A DNA stretch of 64,000 nucleotides from Paracoccus aminovorans (GTDB taxonomy: Bacteria > Pseudomonadota > Alphaproteobacteria > Rhodobacterales > Rhodobacteraceae), in the NCBI RefSeq assembly GCF_001546115.1, contig NZ_KQ955209.1, positions 1,196,037 to 1,260,036 of the forward strand. Reading direction: 5' to 3'. Within the stretch, counting starts at the first letter, position 1. Each line of letters starts with the position of its first letter. This document shows, piece by piece, positions 26,105-47,565 of this stretch. A program made the position numbers and the translations under genes. The notes beneath the pieces are model-generated. The model was not told where the DNA came from. It did no database searches and saw nothing but the letters and a program-made list of their open reading frames with translations.

Positions 26105-26359
26105 TTAGTTAAAGCAACCTCGCGCCTGATCCCGCATCACCGCATAGTCTGACAGCATATCCGCGAGCACCGAGTTCTCCGGCAGCAAAGCCAGTTCTTC
26201 CGCGGCCCGCGCCTGGAATTCCCGGCTGTACTCGACGACCGGCGGACAGGCGCCGAGCCTGTCCGCATCAGAACCGACCGTCGCGCAGCCGCTCAGCCAG
26301 CTCATCGCGATCGCGAGGGCGGCGAGCCGCGGCCTCCAGCATCCGTCGTTGGACATCAT
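26105..26359 (-). CDS. Rz1-like outer-membrane spanin lipoprotein
   Basis: An 84-85-residue protein with a lipobox (WLSGC, cysteine near residue 24) after a short hydrophobic stretch. It overlaps the Rz-like gene in another frame by 92 bases, as Rz1 genes usually do. It should sit in the outer membrane and bind the inner-membrane partner to fuse the membranes at lysis. It is the last gene of the phage-type block on this side. Confidence 0.65.
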   Translation of the reverse strand: MMSNDGCWRPRLAALAIAMSWLSGCATVGSDADRLGACPPVVEYSREFQARAAEELALLPENSVLADMLSDYAVMRDQARGCFN

Positions 26360-26525
26360 TGGCTTTCTCCGTGGTCTCAAGGCGTTCGGCGATGCGTCCC
26401 GCTCGCTCGCCGGACCGCCGAAGCGCAAGCAGGAACAGGAGCACCGCGAGCGCGAAGGCGCCGTAGCGCAGCGCCGCCCGCATCCAAGGGCGCGTGGCGA
26501 TCCCGGTGAGCGGCCCGCCGATCAC
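26268..26525 (-). CDS. Rz-like inner-membrane spanin
   Basis: An 85-residue protein with one N-terminal membrane helix (AFALAVLLFLLAL) and a charged coiled-coil region (RIAERLETTEKANDVQRRML), the usual layout of an inner-membrane spanin. Its start overlaps the stop of the endolysin gene by 4 bases. Together with the overlapping lipoprotein it makes a two-component spanin. Confidence 0.65.
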   Translation of the reverse strand: MIGGPLTGIATRPWMRAALRYGAFALAVLLFLLALRRSGERAGRIAERLETTEKANDVQRRMLEAAARRPRDRDELAERLRDGRF

Positions 26526-27196
26526 CGCCGCCCCCGGCGCCAGTCATCGAGGCGAGCATAGATGGTTACCGCGATGCCACCGAGAGCCACGGCAATGAAC
26601 ACCCAACGGAGCGTGTCGAGATACGGCACGAGCGGCAGGATGGCGCTTTGGGTCTCGGCCAGGACGCTCTGCGCCACCTCGACCCCGGCAGCACCCAGCG
26701 TCGCTACGCCGGCCGCCCCGCCACCTTTCATGGTGCGGCTGTCGGCGAGCACTTCGCGGGCGGGCGGCGTCTCGGCTGCGAAGGCCGTCGCCCGGACCGG
26801 GAACCGCTCGCCCCACTGACGCGCGGGGCCAAGGTCGACATGGATGAATCCCGAGCGCGGGTAGAACCCGAAGCCGAGGAAGCCGACTTCCCGCGCCGCG
26901 GCCTCGAAGGCCACCGGGTCATGGTTCGCCATGGCGATGTCGAAGGCGGCGCCATCGAGGTGCTTGGAGCGGGTCGCACCGCCGACGGCGCGGTTGTGTC
27001 CCGGGCTGCGATAGGCCGAGCGGACGATCAGCGGCTTGCCCAGCCGGTCGCGCAGCGCCTGCAGCTTGTCGAGCGCGGGTTCGTTGACGAGCAGCTTGCC
27101 GGTGCCCCGGCATGCGATCTCGGCGGGCGAGAAATTCGGCCAGCGCCAGGTGCTCTCAGGCACGTCGCGCCAATGGCGATGGAAGGTCGTGGTCAT
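26522..27196 (-). CDS. Phage endolysin, M15-type peptidase with membrane tail
   Basis: A 224-residue endolysin. The peptidase M15 (VanY/D-Ala-D-Ala carboxypeptidase type) domain covers about residues 20-130, with metal ligands in SKHLDGAAFDI (His, Asp) and HVDLG (His). Residues about 150-224 carry a linker and a hydrophobic segment (WVFIAVALGGIAVTI), an unusual C-terminal membrane anchor or holin-like tail. No separate holin is visible nearby except the two-helix protein at 35409. It is followed by the overlapping spanin pair. Confidence 0.82.
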   Translation of the reverse strand: MTTTFHRHWRDVPESTWRWPNFSPAEIACRGTGKLLVNEPALDKLQALRDRLGKPLIVRSAYRSPGHNRAVGGATRSKHLDGAAFDIAMANHDPVAFEAAAREVGFLGFGFYPRSGFIHVDLGPARQWGERFPVRATAFAAETPPAREVLADSRTMKGGGAAGVATLGAAGVEVAQSVLAETQSAILPLVPYLDTLRWVFIAVALGGIAVTIYARLDDWRRGRR

Positions 27197-27213
27197 GGGG
27201 TCCTCCAGAAACG

Positions 27214-27236: not shown

Positions 27237-27269
27237 CATTGCGGGCTGATGAAAGGGGATGGAGCGCGG

Positions 27270-27545
27270 CTACGGGCCGCCGCCGAAGATCTTGAGCTTG
27301 ATGGCGATGCCTGCGAGCAGCGCCAGCATGACACCGGTGGTGATGATGCGGACGGCGGTCTGCATCGCGGTGCGCCGCACCAGCCGGATGCAGTCTACAA
27401 GAGAGCGCAGATCGCGGATGTCGAGCGCGGCTTCGTCGCCGTCGAGGCCAAGGTCAGCGAGGGCCCGTTTCGCGCCTTGCTCGGCGGCCCGGGCCAACAA
27501 TGCTTCCAGTTCGGCATCCGACCGATCAGAACTGTGCGGTGTCAT
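27270..27545 (-). CDS. DUF6127-like phage membrane protein
   Basis: A 91-residue protein with a soluble Ala/Glu/Asp-rich part and a C-terminal membrane helix (RIITTGVMLALLAGIAIKL), a layout I associate with DUF6127 phage proteins. The start is ATG 27545; a longer frame to 27611 overlaps the previous gene. It lies at the end of the head-gene run, just before the terminator. A role in lysis or head completion is possible but not shown. Confidence 0.65.
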   Translation of the reverse strand: MTPHSSDRSDAELEALLARAAEQGAKRALADLGLDGDEAALDIRDLRSLVDCIRLVRRTAMQTAVRIITTGVMLALLAGIAIKLKIFGGGP

Positions 27546-27570
27546 CGGCGCCTCCCGCATCCTACGCCTC

Positions 27571-27897
27571 TCACGCCTCGGCCAGCATCTCGAGATAGGC
27601 GCCGCCCTCACTGGGCCGAGGGTCTTCCTTCAGGTCGAAGATCACCGCATCGATGACGGCGCGCCATTCGGAGGTGATGGCGCGGGTCTCGGCGCTGGCA
27701 CGGACCGTCAGGATAGCCGGCGACTTCGAGACCAGCCGTGCCTGCATGACAGCCTCGGAGCCGCGCAGGTAATGGACATGGCACCACAGGGTGAAGCGAT
27801 CTTCCCATCCCTGGATCAGCATCCCGTCCGGATCGCGGATCATCACCGCCTCCTGGAAGGTGGCCCTGCGCCGCAGGCGCCCGGCAACCATGCTCAC
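27571..27897 (-). CDS. Phage head closure (head-tail adaptor) protein
   Basis: A 108-residue protein with the beta-barrel pattern of gp16/SPP1-type stoppers: GRLRRRATFQEAV, then DRFTLWCHVHYLRGSE, ending in a helix. It should plug the filled head and present the tail-binding surface. It starts with GTG overlapping the stop of the connector gene (GTGA); an ATG two codons later is the alternative. No tail gene follows it. Confidence 0.75.
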   Translation of the reverse strand: MSMVAGRLRRRATFQEAVMIRDPDGMLIQGWEDRFTLWCHVHYLRGSEAVMQARLVSKSPAILTVRASAETRAITSEWRAVIDAVIFDLKEDPRPSEGGAYLEMLAEA

Positions 27898-28433
27898 AGC
27901 CTGATCCTGCGATAGGGGGCGAGCAGCGCATCCACGGCCACGGGCAGCGCCGATGGGCTGGTGCCCGGACTGACGGCCGCCCGGTTCTCATACCAATGGG
28001 CGATTAGCAGCAGCATGGCCTGGCGGATGGCGACGGGGATCTCGGCGGGGGCGCCATAGCCCGCGGTGAAGGTGATCGCCGCAGGACGGCCAAAGCCCGC
28101 GAGGGGTCGCAACAACAGGCGTTGGTCCCGCCGGTCGATCCAGTAATCGAGATCGCCGCCCGCGGCATCGGTGAACACGGCGCTGTCGATCTCGCTGTCG
28201 GGAAACGGCAGCAGGATGGGTCCGGTGACGGCATCCAGACCCATCTGCCAGTTTTGGGTCACCAGGCAGCGGCCGAGGATGCCGGCCGGCCCGTCGAGCC
28301 AGGCGGTGGCAGCATCGATATAACGCTGGATCAGCAGGTCCTCGTCCTCGTGATCGACCCGAAGCTGCGCCTTGGCCTCTTCCAGCGTGATCGGCGTGGC
28401 CGCGGGCGCGGTGATGCGGGTCAGCGTGAACAT
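27894..28433 (-). CDS. Phage head-tail connector (gp6/TIGR02215 type)
   Basis: A 179-residue protein with the helical start of the gp6-like connector family (ITLEEAKAQLRVDHEDED then LIQRYIDAATAWLDG) and a C-terminal helix pair (IRQAMLLLIAHWYENRAAV). It forms the ring beneath the portal. The start at 28433 is the family N-terminus (MFTLTRITAPA). Confidence 0.82.
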   Translation of the reverse strand: MFTLTRITAPAATPITLEEAKAQLRVDHEDEDLLIQRYIDAATAWLDGPAGILGRCLVTQNWQMGLDAVTGPILLPFPDSEIDSAVFTDAAGGDLDYWIDRRDQRLLLRPLAGFGRPAAITFTAGYGAPAEIPVAIRQAMLLLIAHWYENRAAVSPGTSPSALPVAVDALLAPYRRIRL

Positions 28434-28501
28434 GGGCAAAAACCCCCTGAGGCAGGGCACGGGCGGTCTTCACCGCCCGCGCAGTTATTGCAGCATCGAC
28501 C

Positions 28502-28942
28502 TCAGGCCTGATCGGCCTGCGGGTTGATCCGGCCGTGACCCTTGATCACCAGGCCGGCAATCGGCGTGCCGGTGGCATGGGTGCCTTCAAGCGCCGCCAG
28601 CAGCTTCAGGTAGCGTTTGGTTCCGACATAGCCGAAGCGGTAAACGGCGGCGGTGGCGTGGGCCTCGACCAGCGCCTTGATGATGCCGCCTTCGCCCACG
28701 GTCGGGACACCCAGCAGGTCGGCTGCGGTCACCGCCTCATAGCTGCTGTCGTCATCGGAATGGGTCAGGATGAACTCGATCCTGTTGGTCGAGGTGAAGG
28801 TGATGCCGCCCGCGCCAATGGCGAGAATGATCTCGGCACCGTCATGACCGCGCAGATCAATGGCCACGGGGGTGCTGTCGTCGGTGAGCGTGGCCACGTC
28901 GATGGCCGCGGCCACCGAGAGACTGGAATGCAGATCCTTCAT
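28502..28942 (-). CDS. Probable phage head decoration or small capsid-associated protein
   Basis: A 146-residue beta-rich protein (VDVATLTDDSTPVAIDL and ITFTSTNRIEFILTHSDD) located between capsid and connector genes. Such position and strand pattern fit a capsid decoration or minor head protein. No catalytic motif is present. The assignment is by context. Confidence 0.6.
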   Translation of the reverse strand: MKDLHSSLSVAAAIDVATLTDDSTPVAIDLRGHDGAEIILAIGAGGITFTSTNRIEFILTHSDDDSSYEAVTAADLLGVPTVGEGGIIKALVEAHATAAVYRFGYVGTKRYLKLLAALEGTHATGTPIAGLVIKGHGRINPQADQA

Positions 28943-29022: not shown

Positions 29023-30309
29023 TCAGCTGGCCGCGATCTTCAGCAGCTTGATGGCATCAAAATTCTGCACCCCGCCACCGACGCGCTTGGTGGTGTAGAA
29101 ATGCACATAGGGCTTGTTGGTGAAGGGATCGCGCAGCACCCGGATGCCGAAGCGGTCGACGATCAGATAGCCGCGCCGGAAATCCCCGAAGGCGATCGGG
29201 AAAGCTCCGACGGCAATATCGGGCATGTTGTCGTCATCGCTGATCGGATAGCCGAGCAGCGTTGCCGGCTGGCCAGCCTGGACCGGGGGCTGCCAGAGAT
29301 AGAGTTCCTCGGTCTTCGACTTCAGCTTGCGGATCGCCGCCTGCAGCGAGCGGTTCATCAGGAAGCGCGCATTCTGCCGGTAGCCCTGCTTCAGCCCGTA
29401 GACGAGGTCGATCAGCGCATCGACGCCGTTGTGGCTGGCATCGGTCAATGCGGCCGCGACGCCCGAGGCGGTGTAGCCGATCTTGCCCCAGGCGTAAGAG
29501 GCATTGGCGACCGTGTCATAGGCCAGGATGCCGCGGGGCCTGTTCACCCCGTCGCCGGTGATGAAGGCGGCAGCCTCGGCCTCGGCGAAGGCGGTCGAGA
29601 CCTCTTCGGCCAACCAGGCAGCGATATCGACCCTTGCATCGTCGAGCAGCATCTGGGTCGCGGCCGGGTTGGCGTAGATCTCCATCGCCGGGAAAGCCAG
29701 TTCAGCGAGCCTCGGGGTGGCGGTCTCGGGGCGAGCCTGACGCTCGCCGACCCAGCCGGCCGCAGCGCCGCCCTGATTGACCAGCTTCTTGTAGCTGCCG
29801 GCCGAGATCGAGATGACACTGGCAATCGCGCGCATGGCCGAGACCGAGCCCAGCACCCGGTCGATAATCTGTTCCATCTGGTCGGGGACGACATAGCCGC
29901 CATCGGGATCGCTGTCGGTGCGGAGCGCGGCCTTCACCTCCAGTTCCCGCAACCCGGCCTCGACCCCGCGGCGGAAGAACTGGTTGAAGGCGCGGGCGTG
30001 CTCGCGGGTCTCGGGGCTGTCCGCCCGATCCGCGCTGCCACCACCGCCGCCGAGCCTGGCCGCCGCCAGCACGGCATTGGTCTCGTCGAGCGCGCCCTGA
30101 AGCCGGGTGATCTCTGCATTGATGCGCTCCACCTTCTCGGCCTGCACGACATCGGCGAAGCGGGCGTTGATGCTGCTGATCTCGGCCTGATGCTCGTCCT
30201 TGAAGGCGGCGAAGGCGCGGTTCAGATCGGCAAGGATGGCGTTCGCGTCGCCGGTCTCGGCGCGCACGCGAACGGCCCCGTGGATGCGGGGGGATTTCTG
30301 GATGCCCAT
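29023..30309 (-). CDS. HK97-family major capsid protein
   Basis: A 428-residue capsid protein. An N-terminal coiled-coil delta domain (about 25-105: LNRAFAAFKDEHQAEISSI, VERINAEITRLQGAL) acts as internal scaffold and is normally cleaved by the protease encoded upstream. The HK97 fold follows, with the typical DPDGGYVVPDQMEQ, GERQARPET and a C-terminal FRRGYLIVDRFGIRV. Length and order are normal, so the head can probably form. Confidence 0.93.
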   Translation of the reverse strand: MGIQKSPRIHGAVRVRAETGDANAILADLNRAFAAFKDEHQAEISSINARFADVVQAEKVERINAEITRLQGALDETNAVLAAARLGGGGGSADRADSPETREHARAFNQFFRRGVEAGLRELEVKAALRTDSDPDGGYVVPDQMEQIIDRVLGSVSAMRAIASVISISAGSYKKLVNQGGAAAGWVGERQARPETATPRLAELAFPAMEIYANPAATQMLLDDARVDIAAWLAEEVSTAFAEAEAAAFITGDGVNRPRGILAYDTVANASYAWGKIGYTASGVAAALTDASHNGVDALIDLVYGLKQGYRQNARFLMNRSLQAAIRKLKSKTEELYLWQPPVQAGQPATLLGYPISDDDNMPDIAVGAFPIAFGDFRRGYLIVDRFGIRVLRDPFTNKPYVHFYTTKRVGGGVQNFDAIKLLKIAAS

Positions 30310-30319: not shown

Positions 30320-31186
30320 TTATGAGCGGATGGTATCGATGAGCTGCCGGATGGCGCTCAGGGGGATGCCAGCGTTCTGCGTGGCGGGTTCGGCAGCGTT
30401 CCGCGTGCCGGTGAGGTCTCTCAGCATCGCGCGCCGCGCGGATCGCGGGATACCTTGCTGGGCCAGTGCCGCGCCGATGCGGCGCCGGGCCTGAATGTCG
30501 GGGCGCGACTGCGCGCCGCTCTGCGGTGACCGCGCGAGCGGGCCGGCGGCCGAACCCTCGACCATGCCGTCGGCCATCCCGGCCGTGATGGCCTCCTCGG
30601 CGCCGAGAAAGGTCTCGGCATCCAGCAACGCGGCAATCTCGACCTGTGACCTGCCACTGCGGGCGGCATAGATCCCGGCCAGCGCGGCATCGAAACTCTC
30701 GAAGAGCGCAGCGGCCTCAGCCATATCGTGGCGATTGCCGATCACCACGCCCCAGGCATTGTGCAGCATCAGGAAGCTGCCGGGGCTCATGTGGATCTCG
30801 TCGCCGGCCATGGCGATAATGGAGGCCGCCGAGGCCGCGAGCCCCAGCACCTCAACGGTGACCGCGGCCGGATGGGCGCGCAGCAGGTTGTAGATGGCAA
30901 TGCCCTCGAACATGTCGCCGCCCGGCGAGTTGATCTGCACCGTCACCGCCTGCGGGCCGATCCTGCTGAGCGCCGCTGCGATCCCGCGCAGGCTCACCCC
31001 GCCGCCCATATCATCCTCGCCGATCACGTCGAAGATGGTGATGGTGCTGTCGCTCTCGGTGACGGAAGTGACCTGCACGGCGACCGGCATCTCGGCCCAG
31101 CGGACCAGCGCGTCCGATGGCGCATCGGCCTGGAACGCCGCGGGGCGCGGCAAGACCGGTCCGGCCGGAAGATCACGCAGGCTCAT
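30320..31186 (-). CDS. ClpP-type prohead protease
   Basis: A 288-residue serine protease of the ClpP-like S14/S49-related phage class. The catalytic Ser is in GLAASAASIIAMAG and the His in FLMLHNAWG; the oxyanion region is INSPGGDMFEG. The C-terminal ~90 residues are Ala/Arg-rich and may be self-cleaved or scaffold-like. It should remove the capsid delta domain during head maturation. It is followed closely by the capsid gene. Confidence 0.9.
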   Translation of the reverse strand: MSLRDLPAGPVLPRPAAFQADAPSDALVRWAEMPVAVQVTSVTESDSTITIFDVIGEDDMGGGVSLRGIAAALSRIGPQAVTVQINSPGGDMFEGIAIYNLLRAHPAAVTVEVLGLAASAASIIAMAGDEIHMSPGSFLMLHNAWGVVIGNRHDMAEAAALFESFDAALAGIYAARSGRSQVEIAALLDAETFLGAEEAITAGMADGMVEGSAAGPLARSPQSGAQSRPDIQARRRIGAALAQQGIPRSARRAMLRDLTGTRNAAEPATQNAGIPLSAIRQLIDTIRS

Positions 31187-31335
31187 CAGATGGTCCTTTC
31201 GGATGTGTGCGGCTCATGGCTGAGCAAGAAAGACCGGCAGTTTCCTGCCGCTCTCCGCGCCTCAGGCGCTTGTGATGGATAATCAGCGGCGGTTGTCGTT
31301 TATCTGCTCAACCAAGAGTATGACGGAGCAGACCC

Positions 31336-31779
31336 ATGCGTATTTTCCAGAAACTGGCCGTATTGGCCGTCACCGCCGCCACTGTGGCCGCTGTGCCGGC
31401 CTCGGCAGACCCGGGACGGGGCAAAACCCATGATCGTGACCACTTCCGGACCAGCCAGGCAAAACACTGCCCGCCGGGGCTGGCTAAGAAGAACCCGCCC
31501 TGTGTTCCGCCCGGCCAGGCCAGAAAATATGACGATCGCAGGGATTATGATCGTCACCGGCACCATGAGCGTCGGCGGCACCATGACCGCTACGGGGTCC
31601 GGATCGGCGATATCCTGCGGATCGACGATTACCGGGTCATTCGCGATCCTCGCAGGATGAATCTCGAGACCCGTGACGACTGGCGCTATTACCGCGATGG
31701 CCATCGCGCCTATCAGGTTGATCGCGAAACCCGGAAGATTCTCTCGGTCATCGAGTTGATCGACGCCTTTACGAACTGA
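31336..31779 (+). CDS. RcnB-like periplasmic protein inserted in the head operon (moron)
   Basis: A 147-residue exported protein on the opposite strand to the head genes. The signal peptide ends near ASA; the middle is Arg/His/Asp-rich (RHRHHERRRHHDRYG) and could bind metal. The C-terminal ~45 residues (DYRVIRDPRRMNL, YRDGHRAYQVDRET) resemble RcnB-type domains. It has its own leader with AGAGTATGACGGAGCAG upstream. Host-like genes of this kind between phage genes are called morons and are usually expressed from the prophage. Confidence 0.75.
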   Translation: MRIFQKLAVLAVTAATVAAVPASADPGRGKTHDRDHFRTSQAKHCPPGLAKKNPPCVPPGQARKYDDRRDYDRHRHHERRRHHDRYGVRIGDILRIDDYRVIRDPRRMNLETRDDWRYYRDGHRAYQVDRETRKILSVIELIDAFTN

Positions 31780-31809: not shown

Positions 31810-33111
31810 TCAGGGATCGGCTTGGGCGTCGGGATCGGTAAATTCGTTCTCCGCCTTCCCGGCTTCTGCGGTCATGTTGGGCGGCGGATAATAGACATCA
31901 CCGCCATCACGTGGATTCTGGTCTTCGAGGGTGCGGATCTCGTTGGGGCTCCACACACCCCATTGCAGACCCTTCACATAGGCCTCCCAGCGGGCCTTGA
32001 TATCGCCCTTGACGAGGGCTGCGCGGTTGAAACGGGCATAGAGCAGGTCATCCGCGCCGATCAGGTCGCGGTCGATCGCCTCCTCCCACATGGTCAGGTG
32101 ATCCTCGAGCGTATAGGCCACGAAGCCGATCGACTGCTGCTCGATGCCGGTGCCCCAGCTGGTGGACTTCTCGGTATCGCCGATCATATGCGGCGGCACC
32201 CCGAAGAACATGGCGATGTCGCTGCGGCTGAACTTGCGGCTCTCGATCCATTGCGCATCCTCGGCGGTCATCGCGATACGGGCGTAATCCATACCTTCCT
32301 CGAGAATGAGGTGCTTGCCTTCCTGGTCACCGCCGGCGCGGAATGCCTCGAGCCCGGCCTTGAGATTGGCCACCGCCTCGGGTCCGAGCTTCTGCGGGTG
32401 CCTCAGCACGCCCGAGACCCGGGCGCCATTGCGAAAGGTGGTGGCGCCGTGATCCTCCATTGCCAGCGCCAGGCCGATGGTCTCGCGGGCATAGGCGATA
32501 GGCGAGACACCCCGCACCCCGTCCAGCGTCAGCCCGACCAGATGCAGCACCTCGTCCTGCGCCAGCCGCAGACGCCTTCCATCGGGGCGGGTATAGAGAA
32601 AGCTCAGCGCCAGGTCCTTGTCCTGCACCACCTCGACCCTATCCGGATGCAGCGGGATCAGCGCCTGCACGGTGCCGCGCGAGCGCACGATCATGGCATA
32701 GGCATTGCCGCGCAAGAGCAGATGCGCCTGCAGCATCCGGCGGAACTGCGATGGCGTTTGCCAGCGATTGGGCCTTCGCCGCAGCAGCTGCCAGATCGGG
32801 GCATCCGAGGCATCCTCGCGGGTCCGGGCATCGATCCGGCGCTTGATATGCAAGGGCAGCGTTGCCACCGCGCCGGAAATGATGCGCACGCAGGCATAGA
32901 CTGCCGCCACCCGCATGGCGCTGTCCGGCGTCACCGCCATGCCGGAGCCGCTGACCGCCCCGGCTCTCAGCGCTGCCTCCAGCTCGGCAGCGGAGGTGAT
33001 GACCAGCCCGCCACCCGCCTCCTGGACGGACGCGCGCGGTGATGGGGCGTGCGGAGGCGAGGCCGCAGGCGGGGCGCCTGCAAACCAGCGGGACCAGAAG
33101 GACATGGGCAT
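31810..33111 (-). CDS. HK97-family phage portal protein
   Basis: A 433-residue portal protein with the normal length and landmarks: MRVAAVYACVRIISGAVA, LHIKRR, WQTPSQFRRMLQAHL, NGARVSGVLRHPQKL and the C-terminal FNRAALVKGD. It forms the dodecameric DNA gate at one vertex. The opposite-strand RcnB-like gene lies between it and the protease gene, which are usually adjacent. Confidence 0.93.
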   Translation of the reverse strand: MPMSFWSRWFAGAPPAASPPHAPSPRASVQEAGGGLVITSAAELEAALRAGAVSGSGMAVTPDSAMRVAAVYACVRIISGAVATLPLHIKRRIDARTREDASDAPIWQLLRRRPNRWQTPSQFRRMLQAHLLLRGNAYAMIVRSRGTVQALIPLHPDRVEVVQDKDLALSFLYTRPDGRRLRLAQDEVLHLVGLTLDGVRGVSPIAYARETIGLALAMEDHGATTFRNGARVSGVLRHPQKLGPEAVANLKAGLEAFRAGGDQEGKHLILEEGMDYARIAMTAEDAQWIESRKFSRSDIAMFFGVPPHMIGDTEKSTSWGTGIEQQSIGFVAYTLEDHLTMWEEAIDRDLIGADDLLYARFNRAALVKGDIKARWEAYVKGLQWGVWSPNEIRTLEDQNPRDGGDVYYPPPNMTAEAGKAENEFTDPDAQADP

Positions 33112-34903: not shown

Positions 34904-35357
34904 GGTTCAGATAATCCTCGAACGGGTCGCGGGTGTCAGTCGGTTCAGCCATGCGCACCCGGGTGCGACTAGATGGCGTCATCCCGAACTCACTCTCGAT
35001 CTGGCCCATCTGCGCGAGGCATTTATTGGCCACCGCCAGGAACGGGTTCTGGATGATATTCCCGCCCACGGTCTTCACCACCGGGCCGCGGCGCTTGACC
35101 TCGGCCTCCGCCTCGAGCCAGCGGCGCCAGATCACCACGTAACGGGCCAGCGCGCCGACATCGAGTTCGGTCATCACCCCATGCCGCGCCAGCAGCGCGG
35201 CCATCTCGGTGAACTTCGCGGCAGCCGCTTCGTCGAGATGCTCGGGCGGGTCCGGGGTCGCGACCACCGGCTGCGGCTCATCCGGGTTCAGCCGGTGCGA
35301 CCGGGCCGTGCCCTTGACCAGTTTGAGCTGCGTCGGCAGTGGCTTGCGACCCGCCAT
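34887..35357 (-). CDS. terS: Phage small terminase subunit, P27 family
   Basis: A 156-residue protein with the P27-family start (MAGRKPLPTQLKLVKGTARS) and the central helices (HLDEAAAAKFTEMAALLARH, YVVIWRRWLEAEAEV). It recognises the packaging site on the element's DNA. It overlaps the terL start by 17 bases. The HNH nuclease, TerS and TerL together form the packaging module. Confidence 0.9.
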   Translation of the reverse strand: MAGRKPLPTQLKLVKGTARSHRLNPDEPQPVVATPDPPEHLDEAAAAKFTEMAALLARHGVMTELDVGALARYVVIWRRWLEAEAEVKRRGPVVKTVGGNIIQNPFLAVANKCLAQMGQIESEFGMTPSSRTRVRMAEPTDTRDPFEDYLNRGSSA

Positions 35358-38546: not shown

Positions 38547-40765
38547 TCGGCCACCTCCGGCCAGACCCAGACGGAGGGGTTCTCCACCTCGAGTGCGGCA
38601 CCGGAGGAGGCGCAGCGATAGTGGCTCGGGAAGACGGGGATCCCGTAGGCAGTCACCTCGCCGGTCTCGGGATCGACATGCTCCGCGCGGCCGAAGCGCA
38701 TGACTTCGACGCACATGTAGCCGAACCGTGACCGGACCAGTGGCAGTCCATAAAGGGCGCCGTTGCGCTGGTACTTGATGAAGCCCTTGGTCGCGAGGAC
38801 GTTGAGCCGGTCCTGGATGGTGTGATGGCTGCCGAGCCCCGCGCGGTTCTCGAAGGTCGAGGCGAACTGCGTCGAGGTGTAGAGCCGGCCTTCCGCAGCC
38901 TCCTCGTAGAGCAGGTCAAGGATCACCTCGGCCTTGCGGTCGCGCTCGGCGTCGAGACGGGCCCCGACCTCCTTGCGCACCAGACGATCGTTCATCGGGT
39001 TGATCTCGACCCATTGGCCGCCGATCTTGTCGACGAGCATCGGGGCCAGCGCCGGACCGTTGCGCAGCTCGATCTCGAGGCGGCGCGTGCTGGCCTCCTC
39101 GTCCGGGCGGTGCAGGATCAGACCGCTGGTGTAGAAGCCCCGCAGCGCGCTGGCACCCGACAGCGCCTGGAACGGATCGTCCTTGATCTGCTGACGCGCG
39201 AGTTTCCTGGTGTGATGGACGAGGATGATCCCGGCATCGGGATTGATCGCGGCCTGCAGCGCCTCGACGCGTTCCTTCAGGAAGAACATCATCGCGCTGT
39301 TGTCATTTTCGCCGCGGCTCTCGGGACCGCCGTCGAAGAGGTTCCGGATCGGATCGATGCAGATGATGTCGGGCGGCGCGTCGGGAAAGGCGGCACGGAT
39401 CGCGTCGGTGACGCGCTCGACCCCCTGTTGATCCAGCAGCAACTTCAGGCGCGGCGTGGCCACGAACCCTTCGCGGGCCGCGGCAATCACCTCGGGCGGC
39501 AATGCGATCTGGCGGATGCGTTCCCGCAGATAGTGGTATTGCAACTCCGCCTGCAGGTAGAAGATGCGCAGCGGCCGTGGCGGTGCGAAGCAGAGGAACG
39601 GCACCCCTGCGGCCATGTGGACAAGCCAGGAGATCAGGAAGTCGCTCTTGCCGACCTTGGGCGCGCCACCGAGCACCAGCAGGCCGCCCGGCGTCAGCAC
39701 CCGTGGGGCGATGAGATCATCGGGCAGCGGACTGGTGTCGTCGAGCAGCGTACCAAGGCTGATCCAGTCCAGTGGCGCGGGCGGCGGGGTCACCCGCGTC
39801 GGCACCGGCGGACCATTGCGCTCGAGATGTCGCATCCACAAGCGACGAGATTCGGCCTTCAGCCGCGCCTCAGGCCATGCTGGCCGCAGCATCGCTACAT
39901 TATAGCCGCGGATCGCGTCCCAGGCCTCGTCCAGCGACATTCGGCCCTCATGGGCCTGGCGCAGGTAATGACCGATCGCGGCACTGGCCCCCTGGAACCG
40001 GGTCCAGTCGTCCACCGCGCCTTCGCGCACCGGCGTGGTCAGCACGGCGTCGACCGACGGCTTGTCCGTGACGTTTGCGGCCCGCGGGGCGTCAGGCGAC
40101 GGCATCTCCGCCAAAGCCGGCATCGCGGCTGCGCGGGTCTCGAGTTCGGCCAGATCCACCTCGATCGCCTGATGATCGATGACCCGGACCTGTGACTTCA
40201 GTCCGTACTTGCCATGAACCGTGCCCGGCACACGGACCGGCTGATGCGCTGAGCCGAAACTGTCGTCTCCGCCGACCTTCCGTGCGAGCGTGGCGCGTAA
40301 CCGGCACAGTCTGTTAATATCCTCCCCCTCGACTGGCTCTGTCAGCTTCCACCACAGATGCAGCTTGGGCTGGCCGTCCCCGGTCATCCCGCCGCTTGCC
40401 ACGGTCAGCGTCGCCGGACCAAGGTGACGAACCAGGTGCGCGCGTTTGGCCGCAATGTCGCCCTCATCGAGATCGACGATCACTGCCTGCATCTGCAGCA
40501 CATGCTCGGCCCGGGCCTCACCCTGTCGGGCAACGGTTCCGGGGATGACATAGATGGCGCGGCCGAGCGGGGCGGCTGTGCCGGCGCAGGCGGTGATGAT
40601 CGCCGGCGCGTGCGCATCGGCTGGCAGCCAGCGCAGATCATGGGGCGGTGGCGGCACGACCGCCTTCTCGGGCAGCCCGCGGAGCGGGATCAACCCGTCG
40701 CACCAGGAGAAGACCACATCGAGGAACAGCGCGATCTGCGCGTGATCAACCCGGAGGCCGCTCAT
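38540..40765 (-). CDS. Primase-helicase replication protein
   Basis: A 741-residue protein. Residues about 1-240 resemble a RepB/AEP-type primase (VIVDLDEGDIAAKRAHLV, ASGGMTGDGQPKLHLWWK). Residues about 340-560 are an AAA/RecA-type ATPase like RepA or KaiC (Walker A GGAPKVGKSD, Walker B DIICIDPIRNLF, sensor VHHTRKLAR). The C-terminal ~150 residues are a winged-helix-like region with conserved Cys-rich end (CASSGAALE). It should start replication of the element. The putative origin lies at the end of the gene. Confidence 0.82.
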   Translation of the reverse strand: MSGLRVDHAQIALFLDVVFSWCDGLIPLRGLPEKAVVPPPPHDLRWLPADAHAPAIITACAGTAAPLGRAIYVIPGTVARQGEARAEHVLQMQAVIVDLDEGDIAAKRAHLVRHLGPATLTVASGGMTGDGQPKLHLWWKLTEPVEGEDINRLCRLRATLARKVGGDDSFGSAHQPVRVPGTVHGKYGLKSQVRVIDHQAIEVDLAELETRAAAMPALAEMPSPDAPRAANVTDKPSVDAVLTTPVREGAVDDWTRFQGASAAIGHYLRQAHEGRMSLDEAWDAIRGYNVAMLRPAWPEARLKAESRRLWMRHLERNGPPVPTRVTPPPAPLDWISLGTLLDDTSPLPDDLIAPRVLTPGGLLVLGGAPKVGKSDFLISWLVHMAAGVPFLCFAPPRPLRIFYLQAELQYHYLRERIRQIALPPEVIAAAREGFVATPRLKLLLDQQGVERVTDAIRAAFPDAPPDIICIDPIRNLFDGGPESRGENDNSAMMFFLKERVEALQAAINPDAGIILVHHTRKLARQQIKDDPFQALSGASALRGFYTSGLILHRPDEEASTRRLEIELRNGPALAPMLVDKIGGQWVEINPMNDRLVRKEVGARLDAERDRKAEVILDLLYEEAAEGRLYTSTQFASTFENRAGLGSHHTIQDRLNVLATKGFIKYQRNGALYGLPLVRSRFGYMCVEVMRFGRAEHVDPETGEVTAYGIPVFPSHYRCASSGAALEVENPSVWVWPEVADV

Positions 40766-41085: not shown

Positions 41086-41325
41086 ATGGCCCAGATCGTC
41101 GTGCGTCAGATCCCGGAAGAGGTGCATCGCGCGCTGAAGGCGCAGGCCGCCGCGCATGGTCGCAGCGCCGAGGCCGAGTTGCGCGAGATCATTGCCCGCG
41201 CGGTGCTGCCGCAGTCGCGCCCGCGCGCGGGTGATCTGATGCGCAGTATCTGGTCCGGCGCCGAGACGGACGACCTTTCGGTCGAACGCGACCGGACGCC
41301 CGCGGAGCCGGCCGGTTTCGAATGA
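41086..41325 (+). CDS. fitA: FitA-type antitoxin (ribbon-helix-helix)
   Basis: A 79-residue antitoxin: the N-terminal ribbon-helix-helix (VVRQIPEEVHRALKAQAAAH, SAEAELREIIARAVL) and a C-terminal toxin-binding tail (DLMRSIWSGAETDDL). It neutralises the PIN toxin and represses the operon. Its stop overlaps the toxin's start by 4 bases. Confidence 0.88.
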   Translation: MAQIVVRQIPEEVHRALKAQAAAHGRSAEAELREIIARAVLPQSRPRAGDLMRSIWSGAETDDLSVERDRTPAEPAGFE

Positions 41326-41756
41326 TCATCCTCGACACCAATGTCGTCTCGGAGACGATGAAGCCGGCGCCAGAGCCGCGGGTGATCGACTGGCTCAACC
41401 GGCAAGAGTTGACCACCCTGCACCTGACCACCATCAGCCTGGCCGAGTTGCGGTTCGGCATTGCATGCCTGGACGCTGGGCGGCGTCGGGACGATCTTGA
41501 CGCGCGGCTCGAGCAGATGCTGGCCGAGGTATTTCCGGCACGTATCCTGTCGTTCGACGAGGCCGCTGCCAGTGCCTTCGGAGTATTGATGGCAACGGCG
41601 CGCCGGCAGGGACAGGCCGTGAGTTTTGCCGATGGCGCGATTGCTGCCATTGCCGCGGCACAGGGCTATCCCGTCGCCAGCCGCGACACCGCGCCCTTCG
41701 CCGCCATGGGCGTGGAGGTGGTGGATCCGTGGCACGAGGCGGCTCAAGGCCGGTAA
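41322..41756 (+). CDS. fitB: FitB/VapC-type PIN-domain toxin
   Basis: A 144-residue PIN ribonuclease. The acidic residues are present: Asp in IILDTNVVSE, Glu in LAELRFGIACLD, Asp in SFADGAIAAIA and Asp in ASRDTAPF. It would cleave RNA when the antitoxin fails. With fitA it is a maintenance or defence module within the phage-type block. It ends 13 bases into the next, convergent gene. Confidence 0.9.
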   Translation: MIILDTNVVSETMKPAPEPRVIDWLNRQELTTLHLTTISLAELRFGIACLDAGRRRDDLDARLEQMLAEVFPARILSFDEAAASAFGVLMATARRQGQAVSFADGAIAAIAAAQGYPVASRDTAPFAAMGVEVVDPWHEAAQGR

Positions 41757-42886: not shown

Positions 42887-45073
42887 TTACGTCGAGCCGG
42901 GCAAATGCCCCGTTTTCAGTCGCCAGTAATTCTGCCTGTGGTTCTCGAAATAAACGCCCGCAACACTGGCGCGCGCATGGGAGGGCCACGCATCCCGCGG
43001 GCTCCGGGCGCCAGTTCCTTCGATCAGGGTGCCAGTTCGAATTTCTGCGACGCCCGACCTATGCGCTGCAACGAGGCGTTCTATGATCCGAATTTGCTTC
43101 ACCCCAGAAACGGCCAGAGGCGTCAGGCCTGGAATATACAGCATCGCGGACATCGGCCCGAACCGGGCCAGCGTGACCTCACTCCCGCCCAAGGCGAGCC
43201 GTCGACCGATCTTGAACCGCTCGAGCATTGCTGCTTGCGCAGCGTCATCAATCTTCCCATCGCTCAGGAGATCACCGAGTGGCATCACCACGTTGGGACC
43301 GAGATGGGTAAACGGGGTGGGTCCGGCCGTAAGGACGATCCCGATCCCCCCGTCCTGGCGGCTGCGCAGTATGACATCGAGGCGCTGCAGCGTGTTTGCC
43401 TGATCCAGACGTCGTGCGAAATAGATGGGAATTTCTGCATCCGACGTCCGCCACCGGCCAACATAGATCAGATCACCATCCAGTTGTTCGACCCCGACGC
43501 GGCCGATCAGCGGCTTGAGCGCAGTCACGAGGATTTCCTCCAGCCATTCGCGCCTGATCACATATTGCCTGATGTCTTCCAGCGAGACGCTGCCGAGGTC
43601 TTCCCCATGAAGACCGACTGCCGCAGCATGCCCAGACTCAGCCATCGGGCCAATATTGACATCGCCGAAATCGTCATCTTCGTCGATCAGGACGATGTTC
43701 TGCTTTTTCCGGAGTTCTAGGACACCGGCCTGCATCAGACGCTTGGGGTCGAGCCCGTGCCGCCGGATCATCCCGCCAGCGATTTCATCCTCGGGAAAAT
43801 CGTGCAGGGCGAGGAGAACGGGCAGGAACTGGCTTATTTCGCGGTCGTCAAGAACCTGCAGCCGATCAAGGATGCCCCAGAACTTAACCAGACGATAGCC
43901 CAGGTCGCGTTGTTCCGGATCAGGCTTGCTTTGCAGGTTCGAACGGGTATCGCCAAAAGAAATCTCGAGCGATCGCCCCTTCTTGCTGCCCGGACGGGCG
44001 TAATGCACCGCCACTGCCAGCCGGCTGAAGCCCTCGGCGTGTTTGAGGATCCGATCACCCCCGAGATAACGCTGTGCTATGGCCTCGATGTGGTCGTCGA
44101 TGGTGACGCGCAGCGCAAGGCGACGCGACCAGTTGCCGAGGCGCAGTTCCACTTCGATCAGGCGCGCAGCGGACACATCCACATCGTCCCAGGACGGCAA
44201 GGGTAGCGTCAGGGATTTTCTGAACCGCGACAGATCGTATCGTCGCCAGCTCAACGGCTTGCTGGAGAGGTCAGTTTTGAGAACCACTTCTGCAAATGCA
44301 TCGCCGAGAATCTTGCGCACCTTGGGCGCGGGCCCGCAGATTTCCATGGTGCGTTCCGCCGGCGTCCAGATCAGCGTTGCTTCATTCGGCGGGCGAAAAT
44401 AGATCGGCATCCGTATTCCGTTGCCCTTGTAGTTGAGAACGCTGGACAAGGGGCCACCGTGACGAACAATCACCATCACCGACGGGGGATGGGTCTGCGT
44501 CCCCGGCAGATCGATACTGCGGATTGTAACCTGGGAGGGCAATTCAAGCCGGGCCGTCAGCAGCGATGCCAATGCCTCTTCATCGATCTTGCCGGCATCG
44601 ATCCGTTCAGCCGTTCCCGCCGTCGCCTCGAACGAATCGTACATCTTCCCAAAGTCGCGGTATTGGCGTGCCGCGTGAAACGCTTCGGCGTCCTCGAAAT
44701 CTTCTGGGTGACGCAGGAACAGCCATGTGCTTCGGCAGAGCGCGTCCGGCTGGTCATAAAGCTCCTCCATTTCCTCGTGCGATCTGCGGTCGACGGCCAC
44801 ATGCTCGAGCGATGTCGGTCCCTTGCCCACCGCGAGGGAGCGAATCCGCCTGCAGCGGTCCTCCACTGGGCGCAAATCATCGGCCGCAAAGGCGTCCAGT
44901 CGGCCGAGCAATTCCGCGCGCCAGTCATCTTTATTGTCTGTCGTCGGCCAGTCGATCGCGATTTCAGGTTCGCTATCGGACCCCCGGTATTCGAGGATCT
45001 CGCGCAAGAGCGGTATCGGCGCCGTTTCCACGAAGTCGAAGGTTTCAGGGCCGAGATTGCGGAACTTCCGGCT
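42887..45073 (-). CDS. Large protein of unknown function (728 residues)
   Basis: I do not recognise this protein. It has no signal peptide, membrane helix, Walker motif or nuclease motif that I can see. The N-terminal ~110 residues are acidic and helical (FDFVETAPIPLLREILEYRG). The middle and C-terminal parts alternate beta strands with helices; IVLIDEDDDFGDVNIG is a striking acidic stretch near 460. The ATG at 45073 has GGTGAGG upstream; the frame reaches 45094. It is the only large unknown gene of the phage-type block and sits at its recombinase end, a common place for accessory or defence genes. Confidence 0.75.
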   Translation of the reverse strand, partial: SRKFRNLGPETFDFVETAPIPLLREILEYRGSDSEPEIAIDWPTTDNKDDWRAELLGRLDAFAADDLRPVEDRCRRIRSLAVGKGPTSLEHVAVDRRSHEEMEELYDQPDALCRSTWLFLRHPEDFEDAEAFHAARQYRDFGKMYDSFEATAGTAERIDAGKIDEEALASLLTARLELPSQVTIRSIDLPGTQTHPPSVMVIVRHGGPLSSVLNYKGNGIRMPIYFRPPNEATLIWTPAERTMEICGPAPKVRKILGDAFAEVVLKTDLSSKPLSWRRYDLSRFRKSLTLPLPSWDDVDVSAARLIEVELRLGNWSRRLALRVTIDDHIEAIAQRYLGGDRILKHAEGFSRLAVAVHYARPGSKKGRSLEISFGDTRSNLQSKPDPEQRDLGYRLVKFWGILDRLQVLDDREISQFLPVLLALHDFPEDEIAGGMIRRHGLDPKRLMQAGVLELRKKQNIVLIDEDDDFGDVNIGPMAESGHAAAVGLHGEDLGSVSLEDIRQYVIRREWLEEILVTALKPLIGRVGVEQLDGDLIYVGRWRTSDAEIPIYFARRLDQANTLQRLDVILRSRQDGGIGIVLTAGPTPFTHLGPNVVMPLGDLLSDGKIDDAAQAAMLERFKIGRRLALGGSEVTLARFGPMSAMLYIPGLTPLAVSGVKQIRIIERLVAAHRSGVAEIRTGTLIEGTGARSPRDAWPSHARASVAGVYFENHRQNYWRLKTGHLPGST

Positions 45074-45213
45074 CATCGGTTGCCTCACCGCCAAATGATA
45101 ACGCTCGCGTGATTACAGCGCAGGCGTGCGCGCTGTGGCAATATTTTTGTGGACCGTGTCCCGATCCGCCGGCACGGGTGGCATTTCATCTTCGAGAAGC
45201 CCGTGAGCCCGAG

Positions 45214-45417
45214 ATGAAGCGCCCCAATCCCCTGTCACCCTCCCTCATGACACCCGCCGAACGTCGCACCGAGCTGTGCGGCCTGCTGGCGCTCGGGCTG
45301 GTTCGGCTGCGGATGCGGGAGGCGGGCGAAGTATCTGACGATACCGGAGAAAGTTGCCTACACTCTCCGCCCGACCAATGCAGTCATGCAACTCCAACGC
45401 ACCGGAGAACTGCATGA
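45214..45417 (+). CDS. Small protein before DUF2924
   Basis: A 67-residue protein (SLMTPAERRTELCGLLALGL then LVRLRMREAGE). The same small gene commonly precedes DUF2924-recombinase pairs in alphaproteobacteria, as far as I recall. Its stop overlaps the DUF2924 start as ATGA. The start is 45214 or the inner ATG at 45247. Confidence 0.6.
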   Translation: MKRPNPLSPSLMTPAERRTELCGLLALGLVRLRMREAGEVSDDTGESCLHSPPDQCSHATPTHRRTA

Positions 45418-45869
45418 ACAAGCCCGATCCCATCCCCGCGCGCCTCGCCGCGCTCAAGACCACCCCGACGCCCGACCTGAAGAAGCGATGGCGCGACCTG
45501 TTCGACAGCGAGCCGCCGCCGTGCAATCGCCGCTACCTGGAAAGCCGCCTGGCCTACCGGATCCAGGAACTCGCCTATGGCGGGCTGAAGCCCGAGACCG
45601 TCCGGCGGCTGGAACGGCTGGGCGAGGAACTGGACGGCGGCGACCGGAAGAAGCGCAGCATTCGTGCCGACCGCGGTCGTCCCATCACCGGCACCCGGTT
45701 GCTGCGAGAATGGCAGGGCGTCGAACAGATTGTCACCGTCACTGCCGACGGGTTCGAATGGCAGGGCCGCCCTTACAAGTCGCTGTCCGCCATCGCCCGG
45801 GCGATCACCGGCACGCGGTGGAACGGGTGGGTCTTCTTCGGGCTCAAGAACCACAGGGGGCGGACATGA
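45414..45869 (+). CDS. DUF2924 protein
   Basis: A 151-residue protein of the DUF2924 family, recognised by RWRDLFDSEPPPCNRRYLES, YRIQELAYGG and the C-terminal SLSAIARAITGTRWNGW. It is almost always next to a serine recombinase in alphaproteobacterial phages and may help it. Both neighbours overlap it by 4 bases, so four genes (45214-47565) form one translational unit. Confidence 0.85.
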   Translation: MNKPDPIPARLAALKTTPTPDLKKRWRDLFDSEPPPCNRRYLESRLAYRIQELAYGGLKPETVRRLERLGEELDGGDRKKRSIRADRGRPITGTRLLREWQGVEQIVTVTADGFEWQGRPYKSLSAIARAITGTRWNGWVFFGLKNHRGRT

Positions 45870-47191
45870 CGAAGCCCATGGAAAAATCAAAGGTCGTCCG
45901 CAAGCTGTGGTGCGCGGTCTACACCCGGAAATCCTCAGAGGAAGGGCTGGAGCAGGAGTTCAACTCGCTCCACGCCCAGCGGGAGGCTTGCGAGGCGTTC
46001 ATCGCCAGCCAGCGGTCCGAGGGCTGGGTGCTGGTCCGCGATCAGTATGACGACGGCGGCATCTCCGGCGGCACGCTGGAACGGCCGGGCCTGAAACGGT
46101 TGATGGCAGACATCGAGGACGGGCTGGTCGACGTGGTGGTGGTCTACAAGATCGACCGCCTCAGCCGCTCGCTGGCGGATTTCGCCAAATTGGTCGAGGT
46201 GTTCGACCGGAACGGCGTCACCTTCGTCTCGGTAACCCAGTCCCTCAACACCACCACGTCGATGGGACGGCTGACGCTGAACATCCTGCTCTCCTTCGCC
46301 CAGTTCGAGCGCGAGGTCACGGCCGAGCGCATCCGCGACAAGGTCGCCGCCAGCCGGAAAAAGGGCATGTGGATGGGTGGGGTGCCACCCTTCGGGTATC
46401 GGGTGGAAAATCGGAAACTGCTGGTCGAAGAAGCCGCCGCCGCGCATGTGCGCTGGATCTTTGCCCGTTTCCTCGAGATCGGGTCTTGCACGGAACTGGC
46501 GCGAGACGTCGGCGCTCGCGGCATCCGGACGCCGCGCGGCAACAGGATCGACAAGAAATACATCTACCGGATGCTGAGCAACCGCGCCTACATCGGCGAG
46601 GCGGTGCACAAGGGCGACAGCTACCCTGGCGAGCACGACGCCATCATCGACCGCGAGACGTGGGACCGCGTCCACGCCATACTGCAGGAGAGCCCGCGCA
46701 AGCGCGCCGCGCGCACCCGCGCTGAGACGCCCGCACTGCTGAAGGGGCTGCTATTCGGCCCGGATGGCGCGGCCTTCTCGCCGACGCATACCCGCAAGGG
46801 CGGGCGGTTGTACCGCTACTATGTCAGCCAGACGGTGCTGAAGCATGGCGCTGGATCCTGCCCCATCGGCCGCGTGCCAGCAGCGGAGATCGAGGCCGCG
46901 GTCATCGACCAACTCCGTGCCGTGTTCCGGCAGCCAGAGATTGTTGCGGGGACTTGGAAGGCCGCTCGGGGGCAGGACCGCGACCTCGTCGAAGCCGACG
47001 CACGCCGCGCGCTCGGCGACCTCGACGCGCTCTGGGCCGCACTCTTCCCGGCCGAGCAGGCGCGCATCGTAGCGCTGCTTGTCGAGCGGATCGACATCGG
47101 CCCTGACGGCTTCGACCTGCGCCTGCGCATCGACGGCCTAGGCGGCCTCGCGCGCGAGATGCTCGCGGGCGAAATCGGAGAGGCCGCATGA
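45866..47191 (+). CDS. Large serine recombinase (probable integrase)
   Basis: A 441-residue serine recombinase. The resolvase domain has the catalytic Ser in YTRKSSEEGLEQEF and the conserved DRLSRSLADF and QFEREVTAERIRDK. A Recombinase domain (GVPPFGYRVENRKLLVEEA, TPRGNRIDKKYIYRML) and a C-terminal part with GSCPIGRVPA follow. The GC-rich ATG at 45866 overlaps the DUF2924 stop. It is the only site-specific recombinase of the block and so the likely integrase, although serine integrases rarely target tRNA genes. Confidence 0.9.
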   Translation: MTKPMEKSKVVRKLWCAVYTRKSSEEGLEQEFNSLHAQREACEAFIASQRSEGWVLVRDQYDDGGISGGTLERPGLKRLMADIEDGLVDVVVVYKIDRLSRSLADFAKLVEVFDRNGVTFVSVTQSLNTTTSMGRLTLNILLSFAQFEREVTAERIRDKVAASRKKGMWMGGVPPFGYRVENRKLLVEEAAAAHVRWIFARFLEIGSCTELARDVGARGIRTPRGNRIDKKYIYRMLSNRAYIGEAVHKGDSYPGEHDAIIDRETWDRVHAILQESPRKRAARTRAETPALLKGLLFGPDGAAFSPTHTRKGGRLYRYYVSQTVLKHGAGSCPIGRVPAAEIEAAVIDQLRAVFRQPEIVAGTWKAARGQDRDLVEADARRALGDLDALWAALFPAEQARIVALLVERIDIGPDGFDLRLRIDGLGGLAREMLAGEIGEAA

Positions 47192-47565
47192 CCCGCTCCG
47201 CCTCCGCCGACACCGTCACCCTGCGCGTCCCGTTCCGGCTCGCGAAGCGCGGCGGGCGAAAGGAGATGCACCTGCCCGAAGGCATCGCGCCGCCCCGGCG
47301 CCCCGACGACGCTCTAGTCAAGGCGCTGGCCCGCGCGTTCCGCTGGAAGCGGATGATCGACATCGGTCGGCACGCGACCATTGCCGACCTCGCCGCGCAG
47401 GAAGGCATCGCCCCGTCCTACCTCACCCGCGTCCTGCGCCTGACGCTGCTCGCGCCGGACATCGTCGAGGCAATTCTGGAAGGGCAGCAAGGGCCGGACG
47501 TGACGCTGGCCCGACTGATGGTCGGGTTCCCGGAGGAATGGGAGAGGCAGCTGGAGTCTTTCTGA
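47188..47565 (+). CDS. Helix-turn-helix protein after the recombinase
   Basis: A 125-residue protein with a central helix-turn-helix (ATIADLAAQEGIAPSYLTRVLRL). The N-terminus is basic (RVPFRLAKRGGRKEMHLPEG). The gene overlaps the recombinase stop by 4 bases. The same recombinase-HTH pair is common in alphaproteobacteria. It may be a directionality factor or regulator. Confidence 0.75.
   Translation: MTRSASADTVTLRVPFRLAKRGGRKEMHLPEGIAPPRRPDDALVKALARAFRWKRMIDIGRHATIADLAAQEGIAPSYLTRVLRLTLLAPDIVEAILEGQQGPDVTLARLMVGFPEEWERQLESF

Follow-up and report, generated by a model that had tools for sequence, protein, structure and literature searches.

Gene content and limits of the element

The window analysed here is a 64,000-nucleotide stretch of the Paracoccus aminovorans genome (assembly GCF_001546115.1, contig NZ_KQ955209.1, positions 1,196,037 to 1,260,036; host genome G000, 4.59 Mb), and our subject is a phage-like element within it that carries head, packaging and lysis genes and in which no tail gene was recognised. 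Judging from its genes and those of its relatives, we consider it probable that the element belongs to a conserved alphaproteobacterial family of tail-less elements that integrate and form capsids, and that it would act as a satellite with its own lysis gene and use the tails of helper phages.

Genes were called by scanning open reading frames (ORFs) of the window against PHROG and Pfam profiles, with PADLOC applied additionally to the flanking segments. From 40.8 kb towards 26.3 kb, the minus strand carries a primase/helicase (38,540-40,765), two small shared proteins (phrog_19772, 37,997-38,227, and DUF6362, 37,627-38,010), an HNH endonuclease (37,131-37,634), a ParB-like/DNA methyltransferase fusion (35,651-37,027) and a DUF7220 protein (35,409-35,654), the last gene in common with related prophages ahead of a slot whose content is swapped. 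The slot begins with the small terminase subunit, TerS (34,887-35,357; phrog_83, 1e-41), and the large subunit, TerL, whose N-terminal part (33,905-34,903) and C-terminal part (33,133-33,873) lie in different frames. These are followed by the portal protein (31,810-33,111; phrog_12, 4e-117), a 134-aa ORF with no assigned function that is found in some relatives only (31,300-31,704), the head maturation protease (30,320-31,186; phrog_1684, 6e-83), the major head protein (29,023-30,309; phrog_10, 7e-77), a conserved 146-aa protein (28,502-28,942), the head-tail adaptor (27,894-28,460; phrog_442, 1.5e-30) and the head closure protein Hc1 (27,571-27,897; phrog_25, 1e-18). Directly behind this neck lie a DUF6127 protein (27,270-27,611; phrog_10540) and an M15-type endolysin (26,522-27,196; phrog_17373/894), of which full-length Paracoccus copies are 91-97% identical. 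On the other side of the primase/helicase there is a toxin-antitoxin-like pair on the plus strand (41,086-41,756), formed by a small ORF (41,086-41,325) and a PIN-domain protein (41,322-41,756), then a 735-aa protein with no assigned function on the minus strand (42,887-45,094), which has distant homologues in some complete sibling prophages. The plus-strand genes for a large serine integrase (45,386-47,191; phrog_95, 2e-111) and a recombinase-associated protein (47,188-47,565; phrog_14161) close the block, which from head genes to integrase measures 21.5 kb.

An earlier note on this DNA had given the same succession from HNH endonuclease through terminase, portal, protease, capsid, connector and head closure to endolysin, and the profile matches bear it out. 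The large terminase gene is present as stated, although a frameshift divides it between two ORFs (332 and 246 aa), which points either to a packaging defect of this copy or to a sequencing error at that base. The absence of tail genes was likewise confirmed, with zero matches to tail-category PHROGs among the ORFs scanned within 26.1-47.6 kb. The tape measure, tail tube and tail tip genes of a complete tailed prophage are thus lacking from the PHROG and Pfam results. The longer ORFs of the flanking segments A (15.8-26.1 kb) and C (47.6-57.4 kb) also gave no tail-category match, the small ORFs at 16.8-24 kb lying outside that scan. The proposed primase-helicase and recombinase hold up too, but the origin-like repeat array said to lie beside the former was not found: Tandem Repeats Finder reports a single array in 25-48 kb, at 31,547-31,586, and a repeat search within 37.9-45.5 kb found two-copy matches only. 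As for the predicted spanins, the ORF 3' of the endolysin gene (26,268-26,525, minus strand) matches phrog_27122 alone, a small protein family of unassigned function that is kept in relatives, and is a possible spanin; 26,105-26,428 has no Pfam match. The suggested decoration-type protein is a conserved head-module protein whose PHROG is of unassigned function. Its fold model has a modest predicted local distance difference test (pLDDT) score of 72, and its top match among PDB structures is a weak one to a jellyroll protein of phage capsids (E=0.015), so that it is at most decoration-like.

The earlier note had placed the limits at 26.1 and 47.6 kb, and the unit turned out to be larger. Direct repeats at 15,677-15,778 and 57,394-57,496, spaced by 41,717-41,718 nucleotides, bound a unit of 41.7 kb. 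The pair consists of two ungapped stretches, 43 nt (88% identical) and 63 nt (92% identical), and the right copy extends into the 3' end of a tRNA-Ser(tga) gene (57,481-57,570, minus strand), the likely integration target; related units adjoin tRNA-Ser(cga) or tRNA-Ser(gga). Repeats at both ends were also found in P. kondratievae, around a unit of ~40.8 kb on chromosome 1 and two of ~42.5 kb and ~37.4 kb (the first and second copies) on chromosome 2, and in Chelativorans, where the unit measures ~43.1 kb between repeats and one end is 73% identical. Repeat-like sequence occurs in 90 of the 125 genomes of the genus set, which includes P. kondratievae (G069 = G100) and P. binzhouensis (G068 = G088); since similar sequence is dispersed across the genus, we regard the repeat as a candidate recombination core only. 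A search with both flanks yielded no clean empty site, the repeat being so widely scattered. The sequence repeated in these 90 genomes is roughly 190 nt long (15,597-15,790 and 57,400-57,570 in the window), is often present in several copies, adjoins tRNA-Ser genes where checked and may mark a common integration site of islands. Attachment cores at 26.1 and 47.6 kb were rejected: although homology with relatives ceases at 26,113-26,125, no repeat common to the ends of the inner block was found.

The tail-less layout in relatives

Twelve further elements were read individually: three in P. kondratievae, two each in an uncultured Paracoccus and in Chelativorans, and one each in P. binzhouensis, P. 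siganidrum, G130, G006 and a Mesorhizobium bin. All 12 are without a tail module, two of them being visible in part only, and in all of them DUF6127 with the endolysin, or else a different endolysin, comes next after the neck, with one intervening gene in G006. For two loci (L071, L072) the endolysin match is limited to the first 71 aa; in three others (L074, L075, L076) the head closure gene was not recognised and the gap from adaptor to DUF6127 is 0.34-0.39 kb; the Mesorhizobium locus (L078) is visible from the protease onward only. The intervening gene of G006 (L089:17,316-18,290), between head closure and DUF6127, is tail-fibre-like, an assignment made via the family matches of its homologue. 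Pieces of this type of gene also occur in loci L237, L248, L251, L258, L263 and L320, and are perhaps the scar of a module exchange.

Across the genus, TerL matches at E 1e-60 are bimodal, at 81-100% or at 47% identity or less. TerL of at least 81% identity is present in 14 of the 125 genomes (one as a fragment, one with a stop). Sixteen of the 18 other genus matches at this level are in a single frame of 591-598 aa, and the remaining two comprise one with a stop and one fragment with a stop. We read 16 of these 18 copies downstream, in two sets of eight, the second of which are called the later copies here; left out were the G141 copy, which lies close to the end of its contig, and the fragment in G091. 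In the later eight, an endolysin sequence directly follows the neck in L318 and, in pieces, in L321; L320 has a piece of the tail-fibre-like family cl43 after the neck and then cargo-type genes; L322, L323 and L324 show opposite-strand or no called genes, and no recognised lysis gene, across 6 kb; L319 has no head gene behind TerL, and the contig of L317 ends within the portal gene. Tail queries found no match in any of these eight, in a search with known queries in which unassigned ORFs were not profile-scanned.

Viral contigs were searched with the N-terminal part of TerL, which returned 116 relatives; 80 of them were kept, and the counts given here refer to these; as some loci nearly duplicate others or share a source genome, they are not all independent. 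Seventy-six have a TerL identity of at least 70%, of which 45 extend to the neck gene and 31 do not. None of the 45 neck-reaching loci matches the tail queries, which comprised seven tape measures and the tail genes of the complete siblings, with cl43 excluded from the count. A match to cl43 itself was found in five loci (L237, L248, L251, L258, L263), and in the four inspected it covers the C-terminal part alone. In 26 of the 45, an endolysin or DUF6127 lies -37 to 506 nt past the neck; six have phrog_8234, of unassigned function, at ~1 kb past it; and in 11 the contig stops within 3 kb of the neck.

Three endolysin types occur in this position, namely phrog_17373/894, phrog_90 (which also matches phrog_430, a tail-lysozyme family) and phrog_181 with a holin-like gene, and one TerS-TerL pair is combined with several portal, capsid and neck sets. 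L288 and similar loci (L279, L284, L286, L290, L292), a more distant set, have the same TerS and TerL with another portal and capsid, then an adaptor and phrog_8234, followed in L288 by a methyltransferase; they are possibly a further tail-less type. Tape measures were found in more distant relatives of the head genes (L077, L079, L081, L082, L037, L038, L040), the nearest of which, L077, has a major capsid protein (MCP) of 75% and a portal of 68% identity and no detectable TerL; the candidate ORF in L035 was without match. In phage records, all 1,874 TerL matches fall below 60% identity, the best among the matches listed reaching 48%. MW091529 and PQ793804, the small phage records with the closest capsids, were considered as possible satellites and set aside, both being annotated with tail genes.

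In sum, no tail module was seen behind the neck in the 12 named relatives, the 45 viral-contig loci or those six of the later genus copies whose sequence extends that far. The earlier note had named a full set of tail genes between head closure and endolysin in close relatives as the sign of a recent deletion, and none of them showed one. Its alternative, an ordinary prophage that lost its tail module, is as a recent event rejected as unlikely, since this head set did not occur together with a tail in any relative inspected. As far as gene maps can tell, the tail-less layout is conserved and not the result of a recent deletion.

A conserved layout of this kind could also belong to a self-sufficient phage, tail-less or very short-tailed, in which an unrecognised protein performs adsorption and DNA delivery with no helper. 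The element has replication and lysis genes of its own and unassigned proteins at 28,502-28,942, 31,300-31,704 and 42,887-45,094, and the tail-fibre-like gene beside the neck in G006, with its pieces in five viral-contig loci and one later genus copy, would suit such a phage. Against this, complete tailed siblings encode homologues of the 735-aa protein, the 134-aa ORF is absent from several relatives, and the 146-aa protein is also found 3' of the capsid gene in the tailed relative L081. We therefore hold this explanation to be improbable.

Complete sibling prophages

Five complete prophages of siphophage type were read as siblings of the element, three in P. binzhouensis and two on contig C3 of the genome that holds the window. 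All five share with it the families of the integrase (56-84% identity), the ParB-methyltransferase, DUF6362 and phrog_19772; DUF7220 is found in four, the primase in three, and DUF6127 with the endolysin (92-97%) in three. Like the tail-less units they adjoin tRNA-Ser genes. They differ in the slot behind the early genes, which in the siblings holds a module of ~22.5 kb with a different TerS, TerL and portal, a fused protease-capsid protein, a tail terminator, a tape measure and a tail tip, and in the window element a head-only module of ~7.5 kb. Four complete units measure ~57-64 kb between repeats, with two ends resting on matches of 35-37 nt, and replacement of the 22.5-kb by the 7.5-kb module fits the difference in size between complete and tail-less units.

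Both forms occur side by side. On contig C3 an array at 129-271 kb (L313-L316, L167, L166, L161, L159, L160) has two complete prophages in a row from a tRNA-Ser(gga) gene near 129 kb, and a tail-less remnant (253.6-255.6 kb) 13 kb beyond them. Contig C112 of P. binzhouensis carries one tail-less and two complete elements in a single array ending at tRNA-Ser(gga). The 146-aa protein, adaptor and head closure protein of the C3 remnant are 99-100% identical to those of the window copy. A second portal-protease-capsid-neck block in the same genome (C2:444.8-456 kb; L092:8,793-19,989) has portal, capsid and head closure identities of 75%, 47% and 76%; no terminase was recognised in it, distant Mza-like genes (27-32%) adjoin it, and the same head type occurs in viral contigs such as L236 and L239-L244.

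By their gene types, though not by a comparison of sequences, the five siblings are of the prophage type surveyed in the Paracoccus virome study PMC6536676, whose account includes a cluster of 11 serine recombinases with no identified integration site and a fused protease-capsid protein of ~700 aa in 17 prophages. That survey, as it describes its selection, retained complete prophages only, so that it would not have included elements without a tail. The attachment repeat lies 6-10 kb from the integrase gene, which may explain why the site was not detected there.

Selection, capsid phylogeny and points against the satellite reading

Head genes are under purifying selection. Median pairwise ratios of non-synonymous to synonymous substitution (dN/dS) are 0.10 for TerS, 0.11-0.12 for TerL, 0.12 for the portal, 0.14 for the capsid, 0.16 for head closure, 0.21 for the adaptor and 0.27 for both the protease and the 146-aa protein, and the highest value for a single pair is 0.61, for the adaptor; distant pairs are near synonymous saturation, and pairs past the cut-off were dropped.

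Several observations weigh against a satellite that borrows tails, and the first of these are broken copies. The window copy itself may be inactive, since its terminase gene is frameshifted; the P. siganidrum copy (L074) lacks the terminase and half of the portal; and in one Chelativorans copy (L080) the capsid gene is split over two ORFs. Such copies would be expected if the elements were a lineage of defective prophages whose ancestor lost its tail module and which persist as decaying or host-domesticated relics with little mobility, an explanation to which one can add the broken copies in the element's own genome (C3:253.6-255.6 kb and the portal-to-neck block at C2:444.8 kb), a further Chelativorans copy without protease and capsid, and a terminase with no head genes behind it in G151:C25. 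What speaks against decay is one intact TerL frame in 16 of the 18 other genus matches of at least 81% identity, together with head-gene median dN/dS values of 0.10-0.27. The units also stand at different tRNA-Ser genes, three of them in a single P. kondratievae genome, and the tail-less layout recurs with more than one head module and with endolysins of three types. On balance, relics are a rather unlikely explanation of the family.

The helper and the layout behind the neck raise further doubts. Among the 125 genomes, those that carry this TerL show no enrichment of sibling-type phages (8 of 14 against 50 of 111; Fisher p=0.41, the sibling-type tape measure being scored on eight candidates per genome), and a helper could not be deduced from co-occurrence. 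In P. kondratievae, where three tail-less elements are present, no tape measure of the sibling type was found at E 1e-60, and the tails of the siblings need not fit, because their head and neck types differ. No recognised lysis gene was seen over 3.6-6.3 kb in three of the six later genus copies extending to the neck and in two of the 45 viral-contig loci (L241, L295), which continue for 3.6-4.6 kb; five ORFs of these two loci have no PHROG match, and a 1,046-aa opposite-strand ORF of L241 lay outside the scan. Finally, a very short or unrecognised adsorption protein is possible.

The MCP tree cuts both ways. Among its 36 rows the window copy falls in a clade of 13 tail-less rows with a support of 100/100, where the label of three (L025, L026, L032) reflects contigs that end at the head closure gene, their tail status being unseen. 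Two more tail-less pairs are placed elsewhere and the tree requires three changes of the tail-less label, which counts against the reading; as proof of a single origin the tree was discarded. Repeated changes would be natural if recombination swapped structural modules and head-only versions recurred as dead ends, a by-product of modular exchange, and the combination of the same TerS-TerL with several portal, capsid and neck sets agrees with this, as do related early genes whose neighbouring slot is filled by a complete set of head and tail genes. Against dead ends stand the single, fully supported clade of 13 and TerL of at least 81% identity, which was not seen with a tail in the eight named and six later genus copies extending to the neck; the dN/dS values, moreover, suggest that purifying selection has long acted on TerL, portal and neck. 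We consider this explanation very improbable.

Comparison with known satellites and proposed life cycle

Capsid-forming phage-inducible chromosomal islands (cf-PICIs), with which the earlier note had compared the element, are described in the introduction of PMC10690885, and PMC11389934 cites Alqurainy et al. 2023 on them. As they are outlined there, the element resembles them in its HNH endonuclease, TerS, TerL, portal, protease, capsid and head-tail connectors, in the lack of tail genes, and in having its own primase-helicase and integration functions. The head and packaging set is thus present, with TerL frameshifted in the window copy, and no tail gene was found among the ORFs scanned, the small ones at 16.8-24 kb excepted.

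In other respects the likeness fails. The islands leave lysis to their helper, whereas the element has an endolysin gene, some relatives showing none; they use a tyrosine integrase and not a large serine integrase; and their genomes are small, ~15-20 kb, compared with 41.7 kb between repeats here and ~37.4-43.1 kb in four relatives. PICIs also have regulators such as AlpA or Stl, and no match of this type appeared among the window ORFs in the general PHROG and Pfam scans, no targeted search having been made. The element further differs in sharing its early genes and tRNA-Ser location with complete phages and in its large cargo. Since it encodes its own lysis gene and a serine integrase, is as large as a phage and carries genes of complete phages, it is not filed as a cf-PICI; of the comparison, the head and packaging set without a tail stands. 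Loci L322, L323, L324 and L241 (capsid of the ~47% type), where no lysis gene follows the neck, come nearer to the arrangement of classic cf-PICIs.

Genes for heads and packaging, but no complete set of tail genes, are also reported for the Vibrio satellite-plasmid cf-PISP (PMC13230959) and for the Streptomyces satellites MulchRoom and MiniFlayer (PMC10690885). In the accounts concerned, however, the former is a 15.8-kb episome with no integrase and the latter are without primases, and for neither do these accounts describe a phage chassis shared with the helper. A literature search among open-licence papers turned up, among the matches listed, no description of the present tail-less family.

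We propose that the satellite would excise by means of its serine integrase and replicate with its own primase/helicase. HNH endonuclease, TerS and TerL would then cut and package the ~40-kb genome into the element's own HK97-type heads; heads of this type have a capacity of ~40 kb. The adaptor and head closure protein would close the heads, which could dock onto the tails of a co-resident or infecting helper siphophage, and the particles would leave the cell through the action of the element's own lysis gene. Borrowing of tails from a helper is the best inference from the gene set, and the element would accordingly behave as a satellite that makes its own capsids and has the same body plan as its possible helper phages.

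More tentatively, and without leaning firmly either way, we suggest that the family could be a separate class of satellites not descended from PICIs, with a chassis shared with complete phages, mostly a lysis gene of its own, and a body plan (serine integrase, early genes, lysis and tRNA-Ser location) that takes now the form of a complete siphophage, now a head-only one. The head-only form could stand in tandem arrays with complete siblings and depend on others for the tail alone. If this is true, a satellite would differ from its possible helper mainly by one swapped module, with much of the rest, including lysis, kept, which bears on whether satellites originate by module swap or by slow reduction. 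Both forms are present in one genome of a cultivable Paracoccus, which makes the question testable. The presence of this TerL in 14 of 125 genomes suggests that surveys restricted to complete prophages would miss a common family.

Flanking genes and neighbouring phage-related sequence

The earlier note had considered tail-tip fragments at 14.6-15.4 kb as possible leftovers of the element. A protein with the tail-tip domain PF09327 is indeed encoded at 14,738-15,451, but it is no leftover, because it lies beyond the left repeat. In a DNA search with 14,700-15,790, other genomes aligned, among the matches listed, solely at the repeat-side end. The same stretch just beyond the repeat (12,027-15,451) holds, besides the tail-tip domain protein, an 890-aa ORF that in part matches phrog_2206 (virion RNA polymerase).

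Inside the unit, segment A (15,866-26,112) is variable cargo, to the left of the point at which homology with relatives ceases. It includes transglutaminase-like (15,866-16,789, minus strand), CRP-like regulator (22,487-23,392, minus strand) and GroEL-like genes (24,073-25,701, plus strand; phrog_5725, 1e-177). As it sits within the repeat-bounded unit, the GroEL-like gene is either phage cargo or a host paralogue.

Segment C carries Mza-like defence genes on the plus strand (47,679-54,073; MzaC-like, MzaD-like, PDC-M33A-like and one more, by PADLOC) and, on the minus strand, a cytosine DNA methyltransferase of the DrmMII/MTase_II-like type (54,981-56,756; PHROG and PADLOC). This right-side cargo is present as 86-91% identical DNA at the equivalent position in P. 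kondratievae and Chelativorans, the latter belonging to another family. The Mza-like cluster begins ~0.11 kb from the integrase partner gene, and the spacing is similar in P. kondratievae and Chelativorans (L113 with L138, L126 with L139), where the DNA of the cluster is 87-91% identical.

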